NCBI GenBank assembly: GCA_951801675.1
Contig: CATONX010000004.1
Coordinates: 62,001-126,000 of the forward strand
Origin: an uncultured Eubacteriales bacterium
GTDB taxonomy: Bacteria; Bacillota; Clostridia; Oscillospirales; Acutalibacteraceae
Direction: 5' to 3'
DNA: 64,000 nucleotides
The notes beneath the pieces are model-generated. The model saw only the letters and a list, made by a program, of their open reading frames with translations, had not been told where the DNA came from and did not search any database. Positions 18,528 through 47,860 of the stretch are shown here, in pieces (position 1 is the first letter of the stretch; each line of letters begins with the position of its first letter). The position numbers and the translations under genes are program-made.

Positions 18528-21500
18528 ATGAAAGGAAAGAAAACACTCGGCATTCTTCTCGCGGCGGCAATGACCTCCTGCTTATTGTTCACCGGAGTCC
18601 CGGCAGGAGCGGCCGGGCCGGTGATCACCGCCTCCATGAGCCAGCCCGCTTACGGGCTGGGCACACCGGCTGTAGCGACGGTGGTTACCTCGGACACGGT
18701 AAACAAATGTTATCTGGCAAATGAATCGGGCATGGGCCTGGTTTCAGAGCGAACTTGTAAAGACAACTTGGATGGCACCTGCACCTGGACCATTTCTCTG
18801 TCACTGGCCACCAAAGGTGTACGGACGCTTAAAGTGATGGCCGACGGGGCGGATACCGGGGTTACCGTCTCCTTTTCTTTGGTGGAGCACTATGAGCCGC
18901 CCCATACGGCGCCCTCCCTGCTTCGCGCCGAAGGGCCGCAAACGGGCTCGGTCAACCAGCCCTTCCCGGTGACGGTGGTTACCAACGACGCCACCGAATA
19001 TGTGGCGCTGTTCAACGAGTCGGGCACCGGCATGGTTTCCACCCGAGTCTTCTCAGACAATGGGGACGGCACCCGCACCTGGCTGCTGATGACGAGCCTG
19101 GCCACCCGGGGAACCCGCAGCTTCTCGGTGAAAATCGCGGACGCCTCTAGGATCTGGCAAGACACGGAGGCTGCCGTTTGCGTCCGGCTCGGCGTGGACC
19201 AGGAGCCGCAATACGAAACGGCGCAGGCAAAAAGCCGCTCCTCGGTACACGATCCCTCTATCGTCCAGGACAAGGACACCGGGGAATACTACATCTTCGG
19301 CTCCAATCAGGGCGTCGCCAAGTCCTCCGACCTCATTAATTGGAGCACGGTGCGCTGCCAGCTTTACGGCGAGGACGTGGCCTCCAATCTGGCCGGCTCT
19401 TTCGCCTGGGCCGGGTATAAGGACGGGAGCACCAATGCCGGCAACGGGATGGCCCTGTGGGCGCCCGACGTGATTTACAATCCCCAGTACAAAAACGCCG
19501 ACGGCAGCAAGGGCGCTTACATGATTTATTACCCCGTCTGTTCCAACCACAAGCGGGGCGCCATCGGCTATGCGGTGTCCCAAAGCATCACCGGCCCCTA
19601 TCAGTACGGGGATACCATCCTCTACTCGGGCTTTACCCTCACCGGCGGGCCGGATGAAGAAGGAACCACGGCGGATACCATCTGGACCCGCACCAACCTG
19701 CCTGGGCTGATTGAAAACGGCACCATCGAAGGGCTTCGGGACAGCTGGTTCAATGAAGACGGCAGCTACAACATTGTCGATCATGCCATGCCCATCGACC
19801 CGGCGGTCTTCTTCGACGAGGATGGGCGGCTGTGGATGGTCTACGGCGGCGCCATGCTCATTGAGCTCGACCCCGCCACCGGCGCGGCCAAATACCCCGG
19901 AAAGGACGGGAAAACCGAAGGCGGCAACGACATCGACCGTTATTTCGGCATCCGCATCGCCGGCGGCTTCTATAAGGGCGGCGAAGGCGCGTACATCGAG
20001 TACGACAAGGAGAGCGGCTATTACTATCTCTATGTGACCTACGGGCAGATCACGGAAGGGTACAACCAGCGGCTGTTCCGCTCGAAAAACGTCACCGGTC
20101 CCTATCTGGACGCCAAGGGGCAAAACGCCGCCTTTGCGGACGATACGGTAACCCCCTCCGATTACGGCATCAAGGTCATGGGCAACTACAAGTTCTCAAA
20201 CCTGAGCCAGGGCTACAGGCACGGCGGGCACAATTCCATCTATACCGACGAAAACGGGCAGATGTACAACATCTATCATCAGCGCTTTGAGCGGGGAGCC
20301 CGCCATGAAGACCGCATCCACCAGCTGTTTCGAAATGCCCAGGGCTGGCCGGTGATGGCGGTGTATGAAAACGCCGGCGACGTCATCTCTCAAACCGGCT
20401 ATGCCATGGACGAGGTTGTGGGGTACTATGAGTTTGTCAACCACGGCACCCTTTCGAGCTCCGGCATGCTCGACACCTTCCTTGTTCGCCTCAACGAGGA
20501 CGGTTCCATCACCGGCGATCTGGAAGGAAGCTGGAGCATGACCGACGGCACTTATTATATGAGCGCTGCCATCAACGGCGTGACCTACGACGGCGTTTTC
20601 TTCAAGCAGCAGGATGAATCCGGCCTCAAGCGCCAGGTGATGACCTTCTCGGCCATCGGGTCAAACAACGAAACCATCTGGGGCAGCCGGCTTTCTCAAA
20701 GCGACCGGGACCTGGCCGCTGCCGAAAGCGCTGCCAACGCCCTGTCCCTCGCGGCAAACGTGCACGCCGACTTGGCGCTGCGCACCAGGGGCAATTATGA
20801 AACCCGCATCTTCTGGACCACCAGCGATCCTTCCGTTTTGACGGCCAGCGGAGTGGCGCATCGCCAGGCAGAGGATCGACCCGTGACTTTAACCGCCTAC
20901 GTCATGAAAAACGGAGCGGTGGCCGTGCGGACCTTTGACGTAACCGTCGAAGCTACTCAAAGCGGCGTACAGGCTTTTGACGGCAAGCCTCTTTACCAGT
21001 TCTCCTTCTCCAATACCGACGGGGCCTTTACCAAAAATACCGGCTCTCTTGTAGGCGCCGGGCTGCTTACCGGCGACGGGGCGGTGGTAACCGATTCGGA
21101 CAAAGGCCTGGTACTCTCCACTTCCGGCGCAGGTGCGCTCACCCTGCCGGGTGACACCCTTTCCGGCCTGACCGAGGGTTTCTCGGTATGCTTCTGGGTC
21201 AAAACCAGCGGTTCTTCTTCCCTCTTTGAAGCGTCGGGAGAAGGCTTCTCAACGGTCATCGGTTCGGATCTGCGGGCAACCGTGCAGGCAAACGGCCAGA
21301 CCATACGCACGGGGGAGGCCGCTCAGGCGCTGCCTGCGGGCGAATGGGCCTGCGTCACCTATAGTGTAGGCCGCACCGGCATGGACGTGTACCTCAACGG
21401 CAGGTTGGTTTCCTCCGCGAAAGCGGATCTCTCTCTTGTTTTTGCGGACGGCGGACTTAACCGTCTCACCGTAAAAGCGGGTGCCGGTTCAGGCGCGGCT

Positions 21501-22067
21501 CTTCTCGACGACATGGCCATCTACGCGCCCGCCCTGACCGCCGACCAGGCAAACGCCATGGTTGACCCGGACATCGCTTGGCAGACCAGCTGGCAGATCG
21601 ATTTTGGCACCCAAACCTCCGCCATCTGGGGCGGCTTTACCCAGATGACCGACCAGACCCTTTACAAAAAGGTAGGGCTTTTGCAGGGATACGGTTTTGA
21701 AGGCCCGGTTCAGTCGGGAGCTACCCCCATCGGCGGCGCAAAAATCTGCGACTTTGTGTATGCAAAGGGCGGTGAACCATACACCTTCAAGATGGATTTG
21801 CCGAACGGCACCTATCGGGTGTTTATGTACACCGGCGCCAAGGACGCCATCAACACCACCAACTTCTATTTCCAGGATCAGGCGGACGATGTGCACACCC
21901 AAGTGACGCCGGAAGGGGTCGCTTCGGACAACTACGGCGGACCCAATACCTATATGGTTGAGGTTACCGATCAATTGCTGACGGTCACCATTTGGGGCGA
22001 CGCTTCCCTGGGGGCGGACGCCACTACCGGCAGGCTCAATTCCATTGAAATCACCCGGTTGAGCTGA
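18528..22067 (+). CDS. Secreted multidomain endo-1,5-alpha-L-arabinanase (GH43)
   Basis: This 1179-residue exported enzyme should cut arabinan side chains of pectin. A signal peptide ends near residue 29 (GVPAGAAG). Two repeats of about 90 residues follow (31-117 and 130-222; ESGMGLVS and ESGTGMVS), matching the C-terminus of the lyase at 43795. The GH43 five-bladed domain spans about 235-600, with catalytic acids in VHDPSIV, IDPAVFF and GGEGAYI. Next comes a GH43 C-terminal domain (YYEFVNHGT, TIWGSRL; about 620-725), an Ig-like segment, a LamG-like lectin domain (about 815-990) and a C-terminal galactose-binding-like domain with YKKVGLLQGYGFEG. The layout resembles Abn2 of B. subtilis with added modules. 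AAGGAGG precedes the ATG. No dockerin or sortase motif is visible. Confidence 0.9.
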   Translation: MKGKKTLGILLAAAMTSCLLFTGVPAGAAGPVITASMSQPAYGLGTPAVATVVTSDTVNKCYLANESGMGLVSERTCKDNLDGTCTWTISLSLATKGVRTLKVMADGADTGVTVSFSLVEHYEPPHTAPSLLRAEGPQTGSVNQPFPVTVVTNDATEYVALFNESGTGMVSTRVFSDNGDGTRTWLLMTSLATRGTRSFSVKIADASRIWQDTEAAVCVRLGVDQEPQYETAQAKSRSSVHDPSIVQDKDTGEYYIFGSNQGVAKSSDLINWSTVRCQLYGEDVASNLAGSFAWAGYKDGSTNAGNGMALWAPDVIYNPQYKNADGSKGAYMIYYPVCSNHKRGAIGYAVSQSITGPYQYGDTILYSGFTLTGGPDEEGTTADTIWTRTNLPGLIENGTIEGLRDSWFNEDGSYNIVDHAMPIDPAVFFDEDGRLWMVYGGAMLIELDPATGAAKYPGKDGKTEGGNDIDRYFGIRIAGGFYKGGEGAYIEYDKESGYYYLYVTYGQITEGYNQRLFRSKNVTGPYLDAKGQNAAFADDTVTPSDYGIKVMGNYKFSNLSQGYRHGGHNSIYTDENGQMYNIYHQRFERGARHEDRIHQLFRNAQGWPVMAVYENAGDVISQTGYAMDEVVGYYEFVNHGTLSSSGMLDTFLVRLNEDGSITGDLEGSWSMTDGTYYMSAAINGVTYDGVFFKQQDESGLKRQVMTFSAIGSNNETIWGSRLSQSDRDLAAAESAANALSLAANVHADLALRTRGNYETRIFWTTSDPSVLTASGVAHRQAEDRPVTLTAYVMKNGAVAVRTFDVTVEATQSGVQAFDGKPLYQFSFSNTDGAFTKNTGSLVGAGLLTGDGAVVTDSDKGLVLSTSGAGALTLPGDTLSGLTEGFSVCFWVKTSGSSSLFEASGEGFSTVIGSDLRATVQANGQTIRTGEAAQALPAGEWACVTYSVGRTGMDVYLNGRLVSSAKADLSLVFADGGLNRLTVKAGAGSGAALLDDMAIYAPALTADQANAMVDPDIAWQTSWQIDFGTQTSAIWGGFTQMTDQTLYKKVGLLQGYGFEGPVQSGATPIGGAKICDFVYAKGGEPYTFKMDLPNGTYRVFMYTGAKDAINTTNFYFQDQADDVHTQVTPEGVASDNYGGPNTYMVEVTDQLLTVTIWGDASLGADATTGRLNSIEITRLS

Positions 22068-23457: not shown

Positions 23458-25446
23458 TTACGCGGCGAGATAGCTTTGGATGAGGATATAATCCTTGGTG
23501 TCTACCACACCGTCGCGGTCAATATCGCAGCGGGTCTCGGTAGTGGACTGGTAGTAGGACAGGGCGATGGAAAGATCGGCAAGAGTCACTTTTGCGTCGC
23601 CGTTGATGTCGGAAGCGGCGCGGTAGGAGTAGATTTCGGTGACCACCGTGTCCTCACCCAGATTGGGGGTGACGTCGATGGCGTCAAAGCTGCCGTCCTC
23701 ATTGGTGACCTTCTGGGCGCTCTGGGCTTTCACCAGGGTGACGGTGGTGTCGCCCACGGGTGCGGTTTCCTTGAGCTTGAAGGTGAAGGTAGCCACGTTG
23801 GTTTTGCCTTCGTTGGTCACGGTATCGCTGGTACCGATGACGATGCCGGCCTTGCCGCTTTCATCGGTGGTGTTGGAGAAGAGGGTGTTTTCCAGGTTGC
23901 TTTGGGCGCAAACCAGTTCAAGCACGTTCTCATCGTAGTGGATTTCGGCCTGGTAGGCATTTACATCCTTGAGGTTCTCCATAGAGACGGTGTAGGAAAC
24001 GGTGTCGCCCTTTTCCACGATGCCAAGGTCGGAGCCTTCGATAGAGGCCACCTGTACGTCGCGGGTCACGGTCAGGGTGTCGTAGAGGTATTTTTCGGTG
24101 GTGATGGTGTCGGTGTTGGGATCATACTTGAACATGTAAGTGTTAAGAGTGAAGGAATCCTGGGAGACTTCCATTTCTACGATGACCTGCTCCTTCTTCA
24201 CGTCGCTGCCGGTGTCGGTGGAGTTGACGTCCAGGAAGGCGTAGTTCGGGATAAGCGGGTCGCCTTCGGAAACGGTGTAGTTCTTCTGGGAATACCATTT
24301 CAGGCCGCCGGCATGTCCGCCGACCATGTAGAGCGGCGCGTTTTCCGGCTTCTGGGTTTCACCGGCGGCGTTGACCACCCGGTCGGCCTTCTGGCCGTCC
24401 TCGGTGATAAAGCCGCGGGAATACACATGGTCGTGGCCCTGGAGAACCATATCCACATCCAGCTGGGCGAAAATCGGGCACCAGAACTTTCTGGCCGCCA
24501 TAACATCGGAGTCGGTAATGTGGGAAGCGCCGGTATAAAGAGACTTATGGAAGCCCACGATGGTCCACTGGCCCGCCGCCTTGGCTTCGGCCACCGCTTC
24601 ACGCAGCATCACTTCCTGCTGGGCTCTGGCGTCGGCGTTGTTCTTGGCCTCTTCCAGGTTGAGCATGATGAACTTAGCCGGTCCGTAATCAAAGGTGTAA
24701 GCCACCTGGCCGGCTTCAGCAGGGGCGTTGATGTGGCTGTTGAGGGTGTTGTTATCGTGGTTGCCGCGGACCGCCGCGATGGTGTTGTTGGCAAACATGT
24801 CCTGGCCGCCGGTGGGGAACGCGCCGGAATTGTTGAAGAGCAATTCCCACTGGCTCTCGCTGGTGGCGGTGTCGGTGATGTCACCGGCTAAGTATACGAA
24901 ATCCAGGTCTGGGATCTTGTTGACCTCGGCAAGGGTGGCGCCCAGTGCCTTCGCGTCGCTCTCTCTGGCAACCTGGGTGTCCGCCAGATAAGCGAACTTG
25001 AAGCTGTCGGTGCTGCCCTTGGCGGGAGCGGTCTTGAACTTACCCTCGTAAGTATCGGCGCCCTCCCCCACCGTGTAGGTATAAGTGGTGTCGGGTTCCA
25101 GACCGGAAACCACAATCTTATGGAAGCACTTGTTGGCCTGGCCGAAGTTGGACTCGCCTACAAAGCTCTGGGTAGCGGTGTCTCCCTGTTTTTTCACCGT
25201 GATGACCGAGGGGCATTCGGCGGCGGTGGTGTAGGTGACGTTTACCTGGGTGGAAGGATCGTCGCCCATGTGGACGTTGAGCTGGCGGGGCGTCTTGTCG
25301 GTGGCACCTTCGGCAGCCGCGGCCACAATCGGCACGGGCTCGCTGGCGGCGGGCGCCGCGTAGGCCATAGACGTGGTGAACGCGCCCATCAGCAGGACCG
25401 ACGCGGCCGCTAAGCTGATGGCTTTCTTCATGCTTTTCATCTTCAT
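23458..25446 (-). CDS. Secreted purple-acid-phosphatase-like protein with cohesin and dockerin domains
   Basis: A 662-residue exported phosphoesterase. A signal peptide (MKKAISLAAASVLLMGAF) is followed by a PAP N-terminal FN3-like domain (about 55-145) and a metallophosphatase domain (about 148-400) with LADTQV, AGDITD, RGNHDN, GFHKS and GHDHVYSR as metal ligands. A cohesin-like domain at about 470-580 (YTVSMENLKDVNAYQAEIHY) precedes a C-terminal type I dockerin with two calcium loops, DINGDAKVTLAD and DIDRDGVVDTKD. It lies 9 bases after the cohesin-like gene at 25456 and is probably co-transcribed. It could release phosphate from extracellular organic phosphates while docked in a surface complex. 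Confidence 0.88.
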   Translation of the reverse strand: MKMKSMKKAISLAAASVLLMGAFTTSMAYAAPAASEPVPIVAAAAEGATDKTPRQLNVHMGDDPSTQVNVTYTTAAECPSVITVKKQGDTATQSFVGESNFGQANKCFHKIVVSGLEPDTTYTYTVGEGADTYEGKFKTAPAKGSTDSFKFAYLADTQVARESDAKALGATLAEVNKIPDLDFVYLAGDITDTATSESQWELLFNNSGAFPTGGQDMFANNTIAAVRGNHDNNTLNSHINAPAEAGQVAYTFDYGPAKFIMLNLEEAKNNADARAQQEVMLREAVAEAKAAGQWTIVGFHKSLYTGASHITDSDVMAARKFWCPIFAQLDVDMVLQGHDHVYSRGFITEDGQKADRVVNAAGETQKPENAPLYMVGGHAGGLKWYSQKNYTVSEGDPLIPNYAFLDVNSTDTGSDVKKEQVIVEMEVSQDSFTLNTYMFKYDPNTDTITTEKYLYDTLTVTRDVQVASIEGSDLGIVEKGDTVSYTVSMENLKDVNAYQAEIHYDENVLELVCAQSNLENTLFSNTTDESGKAGIVIGTSDTVTNEGKTNVATFTFKLKETAPVGDTTVTLVKAQSAQKVTNEDGSFDAIDVTPNLGEDTVVTEIYSYRAASDINGDAKVTLADLSIALSYYQSTTETRCDIDRDGVVDTKDYILIQSYLAA

Positions 25447-43794: not shown

Positions 43795-46700
43795 CTACCG
43801 GGTGATTCTCACCGTGTAGTTGATATCGGTCGCTTCGTACACGCGGTCTGCTCCGGCCACGCGCACATTGAGGGTACGGGTGCCGATGGAACCAACGCTG
43901 GTGGCGTAAGTCCAGGTGCGGGTGCCGTCCGCATTGTCCACATAGTCCAGAGAAGCCGGGGCGAGGCCCATGCCGTTCTCGTTGAAGAGGCGCACGTAGG
44001 AAACCGCCTGGTTGGTCTTAATGGTGACCTCGAAGGTCTGGTTCGCCTTGACGGTGGCCTTACCATTGACGGAGATGGCTTCCGGCGCTTCCTCGGCGGG
44101 AGGCGCAACCGTCTCGTTTGCAATGGCGAAGCTCACGGTTGCGCCGGTGTCTTCGTAATCCGCAAACACCTTCAGGGTACGCGTACCGACCGTGCCGAGG
44201 CTCAGCTTGAGGGTCCAGGTCAGGGTGTTGTCTTCGTTGAGGACGGGCTCCTCATGGGTGCTGACCAGGCCATTGCCCAGCTCATTGGCCAAGTAGACAA
44301 AGTCCACATTCTTGCCGGTGGTAACGGTGACCGTGATCTCGCTGTTGGGCTTATAGGAAAGCGCATCCGTCTCAGCGGTAACCGGGGTGTTGGAATAGTA
44401 CATGGGATAGGTGGGCAGTTCCATTGCGAGAACCTGATCCTTCACGTCCTCGCCCAGGTAGAAGCCCAGGTGCGGCGGCTGGTTGTAGCAGCCGTTCTGA
44501 TTGGCGACCGCGTTGCGGTAAACCGGATCATGCATGAGGGTATAGATCATGTAGTCGGTGGGAATGGCGGTAGTGTAGATGCGCAGCTCGGAAGAATCCG
44601 CCGCACGGGTGACGATTTCCTCACGCCAGTCGCCAAGGATATCGGCGGCCAGGTTCGGGGTGTTCTTGGTGCCGTTGTTGGTCAGGGTACCTTCGAACAC
44701 GTCGAGGACATCCATATCGTTGGTTTCCCAATTGTACTTGTAGATGGTCTGGGCGGTGTAGCCGTCGGGAGCGCCGATGTTCTGGCCATCGGGCATTTCA
44801 GACAGCAGGTCGCCGTCCCAGTAAGCGCGCCAGTTGCAGGAGAAATTGACGCATTTCTCTTCCGCGATGACGTCACCGTAGACATTGTAGATGGAGCCGG
44901 CGGGAACCTGGCCGGGAGTCTCGTTGCCGGGACGCTGGGACCAGATTTCAAAGCCGGGGTTCGGAGTGATGTTGGCAGCTACGCCGCGGCCGGCGTCAAA
45001 GTTACCGATCTTATGGCCCAGCAGACGGGCGCCGTTGCCGGCGTCGCTCAGGGCATAGTTGACAATGGATCTGCTGTCCTCATAGGGGGAGAATACCTGG
45101 AGGCGGGACGAGCCCGGGATCATGGCAGCCAGATGGATGGTATCGCCGTGAGCGACGCTGTCCATACCGTTTTTGCCGTTCTTGACCCAAAGGACGGAGC
45201 CGTCGTGGTCAATGGCGATGGAACCGAGGAGCACTTCGTCATAACCGTCGGCATCCAGGTCACCGGCGGCGTTATTGTGGTTTCCTCTGCCGCCGGTGCT
45301 GTCGCCCCAAACGTCAGAATCAAAGGTCCAAACTTCCTGCAGCATGTCGTCCACCAGCTGATAGGCGACGACAGTGGTTCTGGCATAGTAGCCGCGGTTC
45401 ATGAAGGCGGTCGGACGAACCGCGCCCTCTTCGCTGGAGGCGATATCCGGAATAAAGCCGAACGCGCAGTTGTAGCGGTCGGAACGGTTGTAAGAGGTGT
45501 CACCCCAGGAGCGGACGTTGCCCACCGGGAACGCGTAGTCACAGTAATCGATGACTTCACCGGTAAGGCCGTCGATGGCGATCATGTATTCGTTACCGCC
45601 GCCAATGTGACCGGTGCCGGAACCGGAGAGGATCACATTGGTGCCTTCCAGAGAAGGATCGCCCACCACGTCGATGATGGTGGATTCGTCGTTCATGTCG
45701 ATCTTGCCCTCGGCGTTGGGGGCATAGGTACGGGTGCCGTCGGCGCCTTTAATCAGGAACTCCGCCTTGCCGTCCATATCAAAGTCGTAGAAGAGGAACT
45801 GGCTGTAGTGAGCACCGGAGGAGACGTTATAGCCCATGTTGAGTCTCCACAGCAAGGTGCCGTCGAGCTTGTAGCAGTCAAAGAAAGTGGGGCTGCTCAA
45901 AACACCGGAGGTACCGGAGTCGAACTGGTTGGAAGGATACCACTTGACGACGATTTCATATTCGCCGTCGCCATCCACGTCAGCAACGCCGGCATCGTTG
46001 GCAGAGTAGGTCGCTATCACCTTGCCCGCAATATCCGGATGGTCGCCCGGATACTGCAGCGGGATAGCCATGTAGTTTTTCTCCCATGCAGCCGTTTCCG
46101 CGCTCATGGAGGAAATGCCGCTCAGGATGGTTTCCACGGCATACTTGTCGCCGGGTTTGCCGGCCGCGTCCACAAAGTTGGTCACCGTGGTGATGGGCTG
46201 GGCGTTGATCTTCTCACCGTTGCGGTAGAGATTGAAGGCGATGTCCTTGCCGTACTCGGAAGCGAGCAGACGCCAGGAAACAAAGATACCGTCGTCAGAC
46301 TTGAGGGCAACCACGCCGCGGTCGAGCCATTCCATGGCGCGCTCGTAGCCATTGTAGTTGGTGCCCAGGTCCGCATAGCTGACGCGCTGGGTAGCGGTAA
46401 GATTTTTGGTCAGCTCATAAGGAACCGCATCACTGCCTTCGATCGGATCTCTCGCCACGATGCTGGCGGTGTAGATATAGACGCCTTCCTTGGAAGCGTC
46501 AAAGGGATTCTGAGAAGTCCAGCCGGAGATATCCGCCTGGATCCACTTGCCGTTGCTCAGCTTTACCGGCACAGTAGCGGGCAGGGCGGGCGCCTCGGTC
46601 TGCGGATAATCCACCTGAATGGTGATCATTTCCTGGACGGATTCCACATAGTGATACTTGTGATAATCCATCTTGAAGGATGCCACCAGATTGCGGGGAT

Positions 46701-47667
46701 TCTCGGTTCCTTCCAGAACCAGCGGGGCCGTATAGGTATAGGTCTGGAACACGGCCGGGTCAAACGCCGGTTCGCTGGTCCACTGGCCGACCTTGATGGC
46801 CTTCGAGGAACCATCGCCCATCAGAGCAGTCACTTCGGTGGGCAGGTCGATGGGATCGATGGAGGCCTGTACGTAATTGGCAGGCTGTTCGATGGACAGG
46901 ATGTTGTTAGCCGCGTACGGCTCATAAGAGATCTTGAAGTTATCCAGATCCTCATACACCGTGACCGGGTTTCCGCTGTTGCGGCCGCCCCAGAACACCA
47001 TGCGGTTGAAGTTTGCATGGTTGGCTCCAATGGCAATGTCACTGAACACGGTGGCAGTAGCGCCTTCCACGTCACGGGGCGTGAGAGAAACGCTCATCTT
47101 GTGGTTGACAAAGTCAAAGTCCAGAACCACCTTATACCAGGTCTTGGTGGGAAGGCCGGTGTTGGTAATCTTGGTGGTGGCGGGATTGCCGTCCACAACC
47201 AGGTCGTTAAGGTTGCGAATGCTTCCGTAGGGGCCGGCTACAAAGCCCAGCTGGCCTTTATTGCCGAACACGAACTGGAACATGATGGAATTGGTGTTGG
47301 CGCTGTAGAAGCGCAGGGCGCCTACGTTTCTAACGTTGGGCACATCACCGGGACGGAAATCGAAGGAAAGCTGAAGGGATTTTGAATCGATGTAATCGAA
47401 TTCCTTCATGCTTCCGCGGTCGCCGTTGCCCTGCTGATGCCAGGTTTCCAGGTACTTGTTGCCGTTTTCTTCGGCAAGGTGAACGTCAAAGACACCCGTG
47501 CTTCCTACGAGGTCTTTGTTGCCTACGGTTCCCCAGAATTGTTCGAAGTCACCCTCGAAGTCATCAAAGAAGGGATTCGCAGGTGCCGCGCCAAACGCAG
47601 TCATCGGCACAATGCCAAAGAGCATGACTACGCTTAACAGGATCGCGAGCAGTTTCTTTGCTTTCAT
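43795..47667 (-). CDS. Secreted rhamnogalacturonan lyase (PL11) with accessory modules
   Basis: A 1290-residue exported enzyme that should cleave the rhamnogalacturonan-I backbone of pectin by beta-elimination. After a signal peptide (MKAKKLLAILLSVVMLFGIV), residues about 30-245 form a LamG-like domain and 250-410 hold Ig/FN3-like modules. The PL11 beta-propeller covers about 430-1090: RAMEWLDRGVVALKSDDGIF, VADVDGDGEYEIVVKW, YDFDMDGKAEFL, GDLDADGYDEVL and ADILGDWREEIV include calcium-binding loops. The last 196 residues are two repeats (VYLANELGNGLVS, VRLFNENGMGLAP) shared with the arabinanase. ATG 47667 has AGGAGG upstream. It resembles YesW/YesX but is twice as long. Confidence 0.93.
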   Translation of the reverse strand: MKAKKLLAILLSVVMLFGIVPMTAFGAAPANPFFDDFEGDFEQFWGTVGNKDLVGSTGVFDVHLAEENGNKYLETWHQQGNGDRGSMKEFDYIDSKSLQLSFDFRPGDVPNVRNVGALRFYSANTNSIMFQFVFGNKGQLGFVAGPYGSIRNLNDLVVDGNPATTKITNTGLPTKTWYKVVLDFDFVNHKMSVSLTPRDVEGATATVFSDIAIGANHANFNRMVFWGGRNSGNPVTVYEDLDNFKISYEPYAANNILSIEQPANYVQASIDPIDLPTEVTALMGDGSSKAIKVGQWTSEPAFDPAVFQTYTYTAPLVLEGTENPRNLVASFKMDYHKYHYVESVQEMITIQVDYPQTEAPALPATVPVKLSNGKWIQADISGWTSQNPFDASKEGVYIYTASIVARDPIEGSDAVPYELTKNLTATQRVSYADLGTNYNGYERAMEWLDRGVVALKSDDGIFVSWRLLASEYGKDIAFNLYRNGEKINAQPITTVTNFVDAAGKPGDKYAVETILSGISSMSAETAAWEKNYMAIPLQYPGDHPDIAGKVIATYSANDAGVADVDGDGEYEIVVKWYPSNQFDSGTSGVLSSPTFFDCYKLDGTLLWRLNMGYNVSSGAHYSQFLFYDFDMDGKAEFLIKGADGTRTYAPNAEGKIDMNDESTIIDVVGDPSLEGTNVILSGSGTGHIGGGNEYMIAIDGLTGEVIDYCDYAFPVGNVRSWGDTSYNRSDRYNCAFGFIPDIASSEEGAVRPTAFMNRGYYARTTVVAYQLVDDMLQEVWTFDSDVWGDSTGGRGNHNNAAGDLDADGYDEVLLGSIAIDHDGSVLWVKNGKNGMDSVAHGDTIHLAAMIPGSSRLQVFSPYEDSRSIVNYALSDAGNGARLLGHKIGNFDAGRGVAANITPNPGFEIWSQRPGNETPGQVPAGSIYNVYGDVIAEEKCVNFSCNWRAYWDGDLLSEMPDGQNIGAPDGYTAQTIYKYNWETNDMDVLDVFEGTLTNNGTKNTPNLAADILGDWREEIVTRAADSSELRIYTTAIPTDYMIYTLMHDPVYRNAVANQNGCYNQPPHLGFYLGEDVKDQVLAMELPTYPMYYSNTPVTAETDALSYKPNSEITVTVTTGKNVDFVYLANELGNGLVSTHEEPVLNEDNTLTWTLKLSLGTVGTRTLKVFADYEDTGATVSFAIANETVAPPAEEAPEAISVNGKATVKANQTFEVTIKTNQAVSYVRLFNENGMGLAPASLDYVDNADGTRTWTYATSVGSIGTRTLNVRVAGADRVYEATDINYTVRITR

Positions 47668-47718
47668 TTTCTCTCCTCCTAATACATTTTGGCCATAAAT
47701 TGGTATGGCTTGTCTAAC

Positions 47719-47747
47719 ATTATGCATTTTTCTCTCTGTAATGTCAA
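47719..47747 (-). promoter_or_regulatory. Promoter of the rhamnogalacturonan lyase gene
   Basis: TTGACA and CATAAT with a 17-base spacer, about 50 bases before the ATG. Confidence 0.75.
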
Positions 47748-47860
47748 TTTCGAAAAGGTAAAATTTTATACTGATTTTTTGCACTATTATAAGTTATTAT
47801 CAAATGTTCATACAACTTTTTATGAAATAATACACATAAAATTTCATATTCATGGAAAAA

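Follow-up and report, generated by a model that had tools for sequence, protein, structure and literature searches.

A two-unit repeat of about 190 residues, in which a unit of type A is followed by a unit of type B (each about 95 residues), recurs on 20 proteins of a single uncultured Eubacteriales genome, and we tentatively propose, at a little short of an even chance, that this A-B pair is a non-covalent module displaying secreted enzymes on the producer's own surface. The proposal, drawn from sequence comparison, is based on the terminal position of the pair, its independence of cargo and the few dockerins in the genomes rich in it, together with cohesin proteins that end in a distant pair and a prophage tail copy nested among the B units of the host.

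An A-B pair common to an arabinanase and a rhamnogalacturonan lyase

The window, i.e. the whole stretch of 64,000 nucleotides that was analysed, encodes two secreted pectin-directed enzymes bearing the pair, a GH43 arabinanase and a PL11 rhamnogalacturonan lyase (Table 1), with unit limits set by HMMs A and B made from copies in the same genome. Searching with the arabinanase module recovers that of the lyase (E 4.4e-41, 44% identity), which bears out the earlier note's observation that the two enzymes have an A-B pair in common, and the two arabinanase units match one another as well (phmmer, 42.6 bits). The true start of the lyase probably lies near 47667, at a Met that, as judged by eye, precedes the signal peptide.

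Table 1 Coordinates of pair-bearing proteins, their units and related features (positions in the window unless a contig or locus is named)
Feature	Position	Strand	Basis or remark
Secreted GH43 arabinanase, pair N-terminal	18528..22067	+	ORF, 1179 aa; GH43, GH43_C, aBig_2, Laminin_G_3 by Pfam
Arabinanase unit A	18618..18890	+	HMM A, 114 bits; Ig-like in model
Arabinanase unit B	18909..19190	+	HMM B, 110 bits; Ig-like in model
Secreted purple acid phosphatase	23458-25446	-	One cohesin and one type I dockerin, C-terminal
Secreted PL11 rhamnogalacturonan lyase, pair C-terminal	43795..47784	-	ORF; RGI_lyase and RGL11_C
Lyase unit A	44113..44391	-	HMM A, 117 bits
Lyase unit B, running up to the stop codon	43798..44088	-	HMM B, 126 bits; Ig-like in model, pLDDT 97.6
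Truncated A-B pair (L032)	C26:6634-7149		172-aa frame
Prophage tail protein, B-only copy	C3:170697-172346		547 aa
SLH match	C3:39571-39705		618-aa frame without the pair
Protein of ~450 aa with B-like unit	L088:3458-4831	-	
Protein of ~450 aa with B-like unit	L092:2967-4322		
Protein of ~450 aa with B-like unit	L093:2135-3421	-	
Protein of ~450 aa with B-like unit	L094:4961-6325	-	
Open frame ending in units (L131)	G003:C8:17000-36000		3899 aa

The model of the pair consists of two Ig-like sandwiches, all strands (pLDDT 89.0, pTM 0.53), and lyase unit B modelled alone is likewise Ig-like and all strands (pTM 0.88). The predicted fold is that of an Ig-like beta sandwich, and its structural matches in the PDB are Ig-like too: comparison of the pair (VIA) gives invasin (Z 9.4, 165 aligned, rmsd 13.7), with other Ig tandems alike, and comparison of unit B gives RAGE (Z 9.2, 95 aligned, rmsd 2.8), with many Ig proteins tied. 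As far as the models go, these matches are generic to the Ig fold, and no solved wall-anchoring module stood out among the matches listed.

Conservation was read from 67 distinct pairs in the fetched loci, each with both units above 30 bits and a linker shorter than 40 residues, a set that covers part of the pairs in G001, G002, G009, G160 and G165 and leaves aside those whose first unit is B-like or weak (e.g. L104, L107, L131, L133 and L134). Unit A keeps E36 in 66 of the 67 pairs and both G67 and R69 in all of them; in unit B, N133, G165 and R167 are kept in 67 and E134 in 66. The invariant Glu and the G-x-R motif occupy equivalent places in the two units. In the unit B model, Asn and Glu lie in a loop following a strand and Gly and Arg open a later strand, and these invariant residues may make up a site for binding or a bridge within the unit.

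Neither Pfam or NCBIfam models nor a PDB sequence search gave a consistent family for the units. The widest match is A2M_BRD, on 16 of 29 members (best E 5.5e-6), with the scores seen (17.6-21.5) below its cut-off of 22.7; other families match fewer. A known named domain is disfavoured by these searches and by the generic Ig nature of the fold matches; the earlier note's view that no named domain fits is supported for Pfam and NCBIfam, no characterised domain matching consistently.

Twenty intact pairs in one genome

In the genome that holds the window (G000; 2.36 Mb, 48 contigs), the single arabinanase module finds 23 places at E <= 1e-3 and a 20-row profile (A1) finds 24, so the likeness between modules is not one of chance. 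Of the 24 places, 20 are intact pairs and one is a truncated pair; a further one, on a prophage tail protein, has unit B alone, and the other two (on C22 and at C2:160312) are single and weak. The earlier note had described the pair in two proteins; both do carry it, but intact pairs in this genome number 20, and confinement of the repeats to two proteins, which the note had named, if it came without conserved surface residues, as refuting its reading, is contradicted by these copies and by those in other genera.

The order of the units is fixed, A and then B. The pair forms the extreme C-terminus in 18 of the 20 intact copies and is N-terminal in two, both GH43 arabinanases; the opposite ends reported for the arabinanase (N-terminal) and the lyase (C-terminal) are thus correct for these two enzymes, but the ends are used very unevenly. 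A signal peptide was recognised by eye at the start of 19 of the 20 proteins, and the printed sequence of the twentieth broke off inside one. By Pfam, the cargo consists of nine PL11 lyases, three GH43 enzymes, three GDSL esterases, one glucuronyl esterase, one protein with a 3-keto-disaccharide hydrolase domain and FIVAR, and one with fn3 and FG-GAP; two of the 20 have no family over its cut-off. Other Ig-type domains, e.g. Big_4 and aBig_2, also occur on pair enzymes.

Association with PL11 is close throughout the genus (g1): the module is present on 9/9 PL11 open frames in G000, 6/6 in G001 (leaving out an additional match below the cut-off) and 8/9 in G002, where one of the eight, lying at a contig end, has just its unit A and the ninth is a contig-edge fragment. 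The truncated pair (L032) lies about 3 kb after the glucuronyl esterase and is nearly identical to that enzyme's pair; it is either the remnant of a recent duplication or an assembly effect.

The pair changes cargo between genera

Of 60 relatives, 6 have profile matches at E <= 1e-3, the own genome being searched besides. With the own genome included, such matches occur in 32/398 genomes sampled from the family, 5/394 from the order, 5/391 from the class and 2/398 from the phylum, in overlapping samples with at most eight candidates scored per genome and profiles built from g1 only. Strong pairs (best E < 1e-30) are found in seven genomes of three genera within one family: G000, G001 and G002 (g1), G003 and G160 (g2), and G009 and G165 (g8). 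The uncultured Clostridia MAG records CAMLYM01 and CAJFTS01, which agree with G001 and G002 in contig numbers and coordinates, were taken as these genomes and do not count as extra evidence. Of the 67 distinct pairs, 62 end 0-19 residues before the C-terminus, and the remaining five belong to two N-terminal GH43 groups (L001, L068 and L069; L002 and L070), L068 being cut by the end of its contig. Most matched units in distant relatives from other genera are C-terminal as well.

The cargo shifts from genus to genus. The pair ends GH38, GH2, GH92 and GH130 enzymes in G009 (four scanned), a GH127 enzyme in G160, where the other pair protein scanned gave no Pfam hit, and a BspA-type LRR protein in G003. 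G003 also encodes an M28 peptidase that has the pair at its C-terminus, with a first unit scoring as B. A search for PL11 gave no match in G003, G009, G160 or G165. The module therefore does not follow pectin, and pectin, which the earlier note had put forward as a possible ligand, is disfavoured.

On enzymes of this sort, beta-sandwich modules with two units frequently bind the substrate, and the cargo in the own genome mostly acts on pectin side chains or backbone. A role as a carbohydrate-binding module for the enzyme's substrate, e.g. pectin, nevertheless seems very doubtful to us, as in genera without a PL11 match the same pair is borne by proteins of alpha-mannosidase type and by GH127, LRR and peptidase proteins, and no CBM family is consistent on the pairs (CBM_2 matches one of 29 members, weakly). 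Pectin binding is unlikely to be the module's job in view of this shift of cargo.

Some g8 proteins have A-B-B or A-B-B-B arrays. C-terminal A-B-B-B arrays end proteins of more than 2000 aa in G009 (L096) and G165 (L129), from which it follows that B can multiply while A remains single. The open frame L131 of G003, of which a part of 1669 aa was scanned and has no Pfam match, also ends in units and may encode a giant surface protein. Four genomes (G000, G001, G002 and G009) encode a conserved secreted protein of some 450 aa in which a B-like unit, weak at 25-31 bits, lies close to the N-terminus; the conserved C-terminal part of this protein has no Pfam match, and the suggestion, made by eye, of a wall hydrolase fitted with a targeting unit (L088) found no support in one PDB sequence search.

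A and B are old and separate types

A tree of 142 units requires 2 changes between A and B, compared with 47.5 in shuffles (0/500 as low), and 10 changes among seven type-by-genus groups, compared with 77.6; the tree has few columns and many open forks, and types were first assigned by the g1-built HMMs. Two g1 A units, apparently L013 and L022, fall with B. These results indicate that A and B are distinct types that had parted before g1, g2 and g8 separated, and that amplification of the pairs took place in each genus separately. The earlier note's idea of a moving unit with a job of its own gains from this, as well as from the spread of the pair over 20 proteins of several enzyme classes.

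Such persistence also bears on whether the pair could be a passive cap or spacer, making the C-terminus of long secreted enzymes more stable or shielding it, with no particular binding partner. We regard this as distinctly unlikely: the presence of A-B on every g1 PL11 frame save a contig-edge fragment exceeds loose decoration, as does the separation of types A and B across three genera, and a terminal unit has nothing to space. The generic Ig fold would nonetheless suit a cap, a structural role could account for the invariant Gly, Glu and Arg, Big_4 and aBig_2 are already present on the enzymes, and one distant genome (G1104) encodes a GH106 protein with a B-like unit ahead of an LPXTG signal, an arrangement in which the B-like unit is not itself the anchor.

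A B unit on a prophage tail protein

On contig C3 of the own genome, the genes for a tape measure protein (phrog_1533), Dit (phrog_33) and a Tal-like minor tail protein (phrog_538) are directly followed by that of the B-unit protein, then by further genes and an amidase-LysM endolysin. The N-terminal relatives of this protein in the phage records listed are annotated as tail or structural and span residues 3-184, short of the B unit; PHROGs label some relatives of the N-terminal part as head proteins. G001 and G002 encode a B-unit protein in a like setting (in G001 by frame lengths only), so a copy directly after Tal is present in 3/3 g1 genomes. The three phage B units form one group (SH-aLRT 94) nested in the g1 B units, the nearest forks enclosing this group having SH-aLRT values of 54-88. 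By eye, Arg is kept in all three phage units and Glu in one. In two scans of IMG/VR viral contigs, neither the phage protein nor the pair had an encoded relative. Most simply, the host's own phages would have taken unit B for a host-facing tail protein. Binding of mucus by Ig domains on phages is also described (PMC9853417).

Dockerins, cohesins and other attachment systems

The 10 genomes compared for dockerins, from five genera, show few in those rich in the module: one match each in G000, G001, G002, G009 and G165 and none in G160, compared with 21 in G003, 24 in G200, 24 in G335 and 5 in G019. The contrast is imperfect, because G003 has seven pairs alongside its 21 dockerins and one of its proteins (L134) combines B units with a dockerin; both facts, and the small number of genomes and genera, count against surface display. 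Despite its dockerins, G003 gave no match to the cohesin profile PF00963 at E <= 1e-3, so these dockerins may use an unusual partner.

In the dockerin-rich genus g86 (L115 and L116), cohesin proteins carry distant C-terminal units: G200 and G335 encode a protein of 635-655 aa with one cohesin (28.1 and 24.3 bits; cut-off 24.1) and weak C-terminal units, the last unit alone being scored in G200. By eye, these distant cohesin-bearing proteins have Tyr or another residue at the position of the invariant Arg.

The purple acid phosphatase of the window holds the only cohesin and the only dockerin match of the own genome, and a frame of the same length with cohesin and dockerin is found in G001 and G002. 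With one cohesin only, the phosphatase was set aside as a candidate scaffold.

Dockerin-like docking, in which a scaffold or a surface protein would offer a partner domain to the pair and so gather the enzymes in one complex, is the chief rival to wall binding but in our judgement unlikely. It would account for one terminal pair on most enzymes, placed as dockerins are, for two differing units in a fixed order and for the few dockerins in module-rich genomes; an unsystematic look, however, brought up no partner family, the lone cohesin of the own genome sits on a phosphatase bearing its own dockerin, and scaffold binding alone leaves the phage tail copy unexplained.

Signatures of other attachment systems are scarce in genomes that have many pairs. 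Pfam scans of the own-genome pair proteins gave neither type I dockerin (PF00404) nor SLH (PF00395), and the only SLH match in G000 is on a frame without the pair. The CW_binding_2 profile (PF04122) matched 0/10 genomes at E <= 1e-3, with control genomes positive. As to LPXTG sorting, 18 own-genome pair proteins end at unit B and Gram_pos_anchor was not reported in the Pfam scans.

A possible surface-display system

We return to display on the producer's surface as the preferred reading. The enzyme would be exported via its signal peptide, its two Ig-like units would bind a component of the envelope, most likely wall glycan, and it would remain on the cell, where its products would be open to uptake. 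The prophage would have acquired unit B as a means of recognising that surface. In the dockerin-rich genus, the distant pair on cohesin proteins would anchor a scaffold, and in genera rich in the module each enzyme would attach by its own pair.

Several observations speak against display: LPXTG follows a B-like unit in G1104 and sortases are present in 6/6 genomes, the Glu is retained in a single phage copy, Ig domains on phages can have other uses, and two GH43 proteins bear the pair N-terminally. A broader claim, that one Clostridia family has an undescribed surface-display system in which a two-unit Ig-like anchor replaced dockerin-cohesin or SLH, was amplified per genus onto the degradative enzymes in use there and gave one unit to prophage tails for recognition of the host, we hold to be possible, with the balance leaning somewhat against it. 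No published description of such a module was recognised in PMC titles and abstract openings, a scope outside which most subscription papers fall.

Should the pair prove to be an anchor, the set of enzymes that these genera display could be read from it, surface and released enzymes would become separable by sequence, and anaerobes would gain a new tag for surface display; it would also provide a testable link between enzyme display and phage recognition of the bacterium.

Comparison with known systems

As an anchor, the pair could, with nearly even confidence on our part, work like SLH or CWB2 repeats while being a member of neither. Like CWB2 of Clostridioides difficile and other Firmicutes, it consists of non-identical tandem repeats, one set per protein, on many unrelated proteins. 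CWB2 repeats are not interchangeable (PMC4973711), and A and B, comparably, keep their type and order. The pair differs from CWB2 in having two units in the own-genome copies rather than three tandem repeats, in its predicted Ig-like fold and in the lack of a PF04122 match in 10/10 genomes; the ligand of CWB2 is PSII.

SLH is a terminal surface module on many enzymes and cohesin proteins. The pair resembles it as a terminal module of many enzymes and differs in its all-beta prediction. Type I dockerins likewise put two related units at the C-terminal end of numerous degradative enzymes, but the length of the pair, about 190 residues, and its predicted Ig-like fold set it apart. Finally, the pair shares a general fold and scattered weak matches with bacterial Ig-like domains (Pfam Big, A2M_BRD, filamin-like); no single one of these families covers the copies, and both units of the pair have the invariant Glu and G-x-R.
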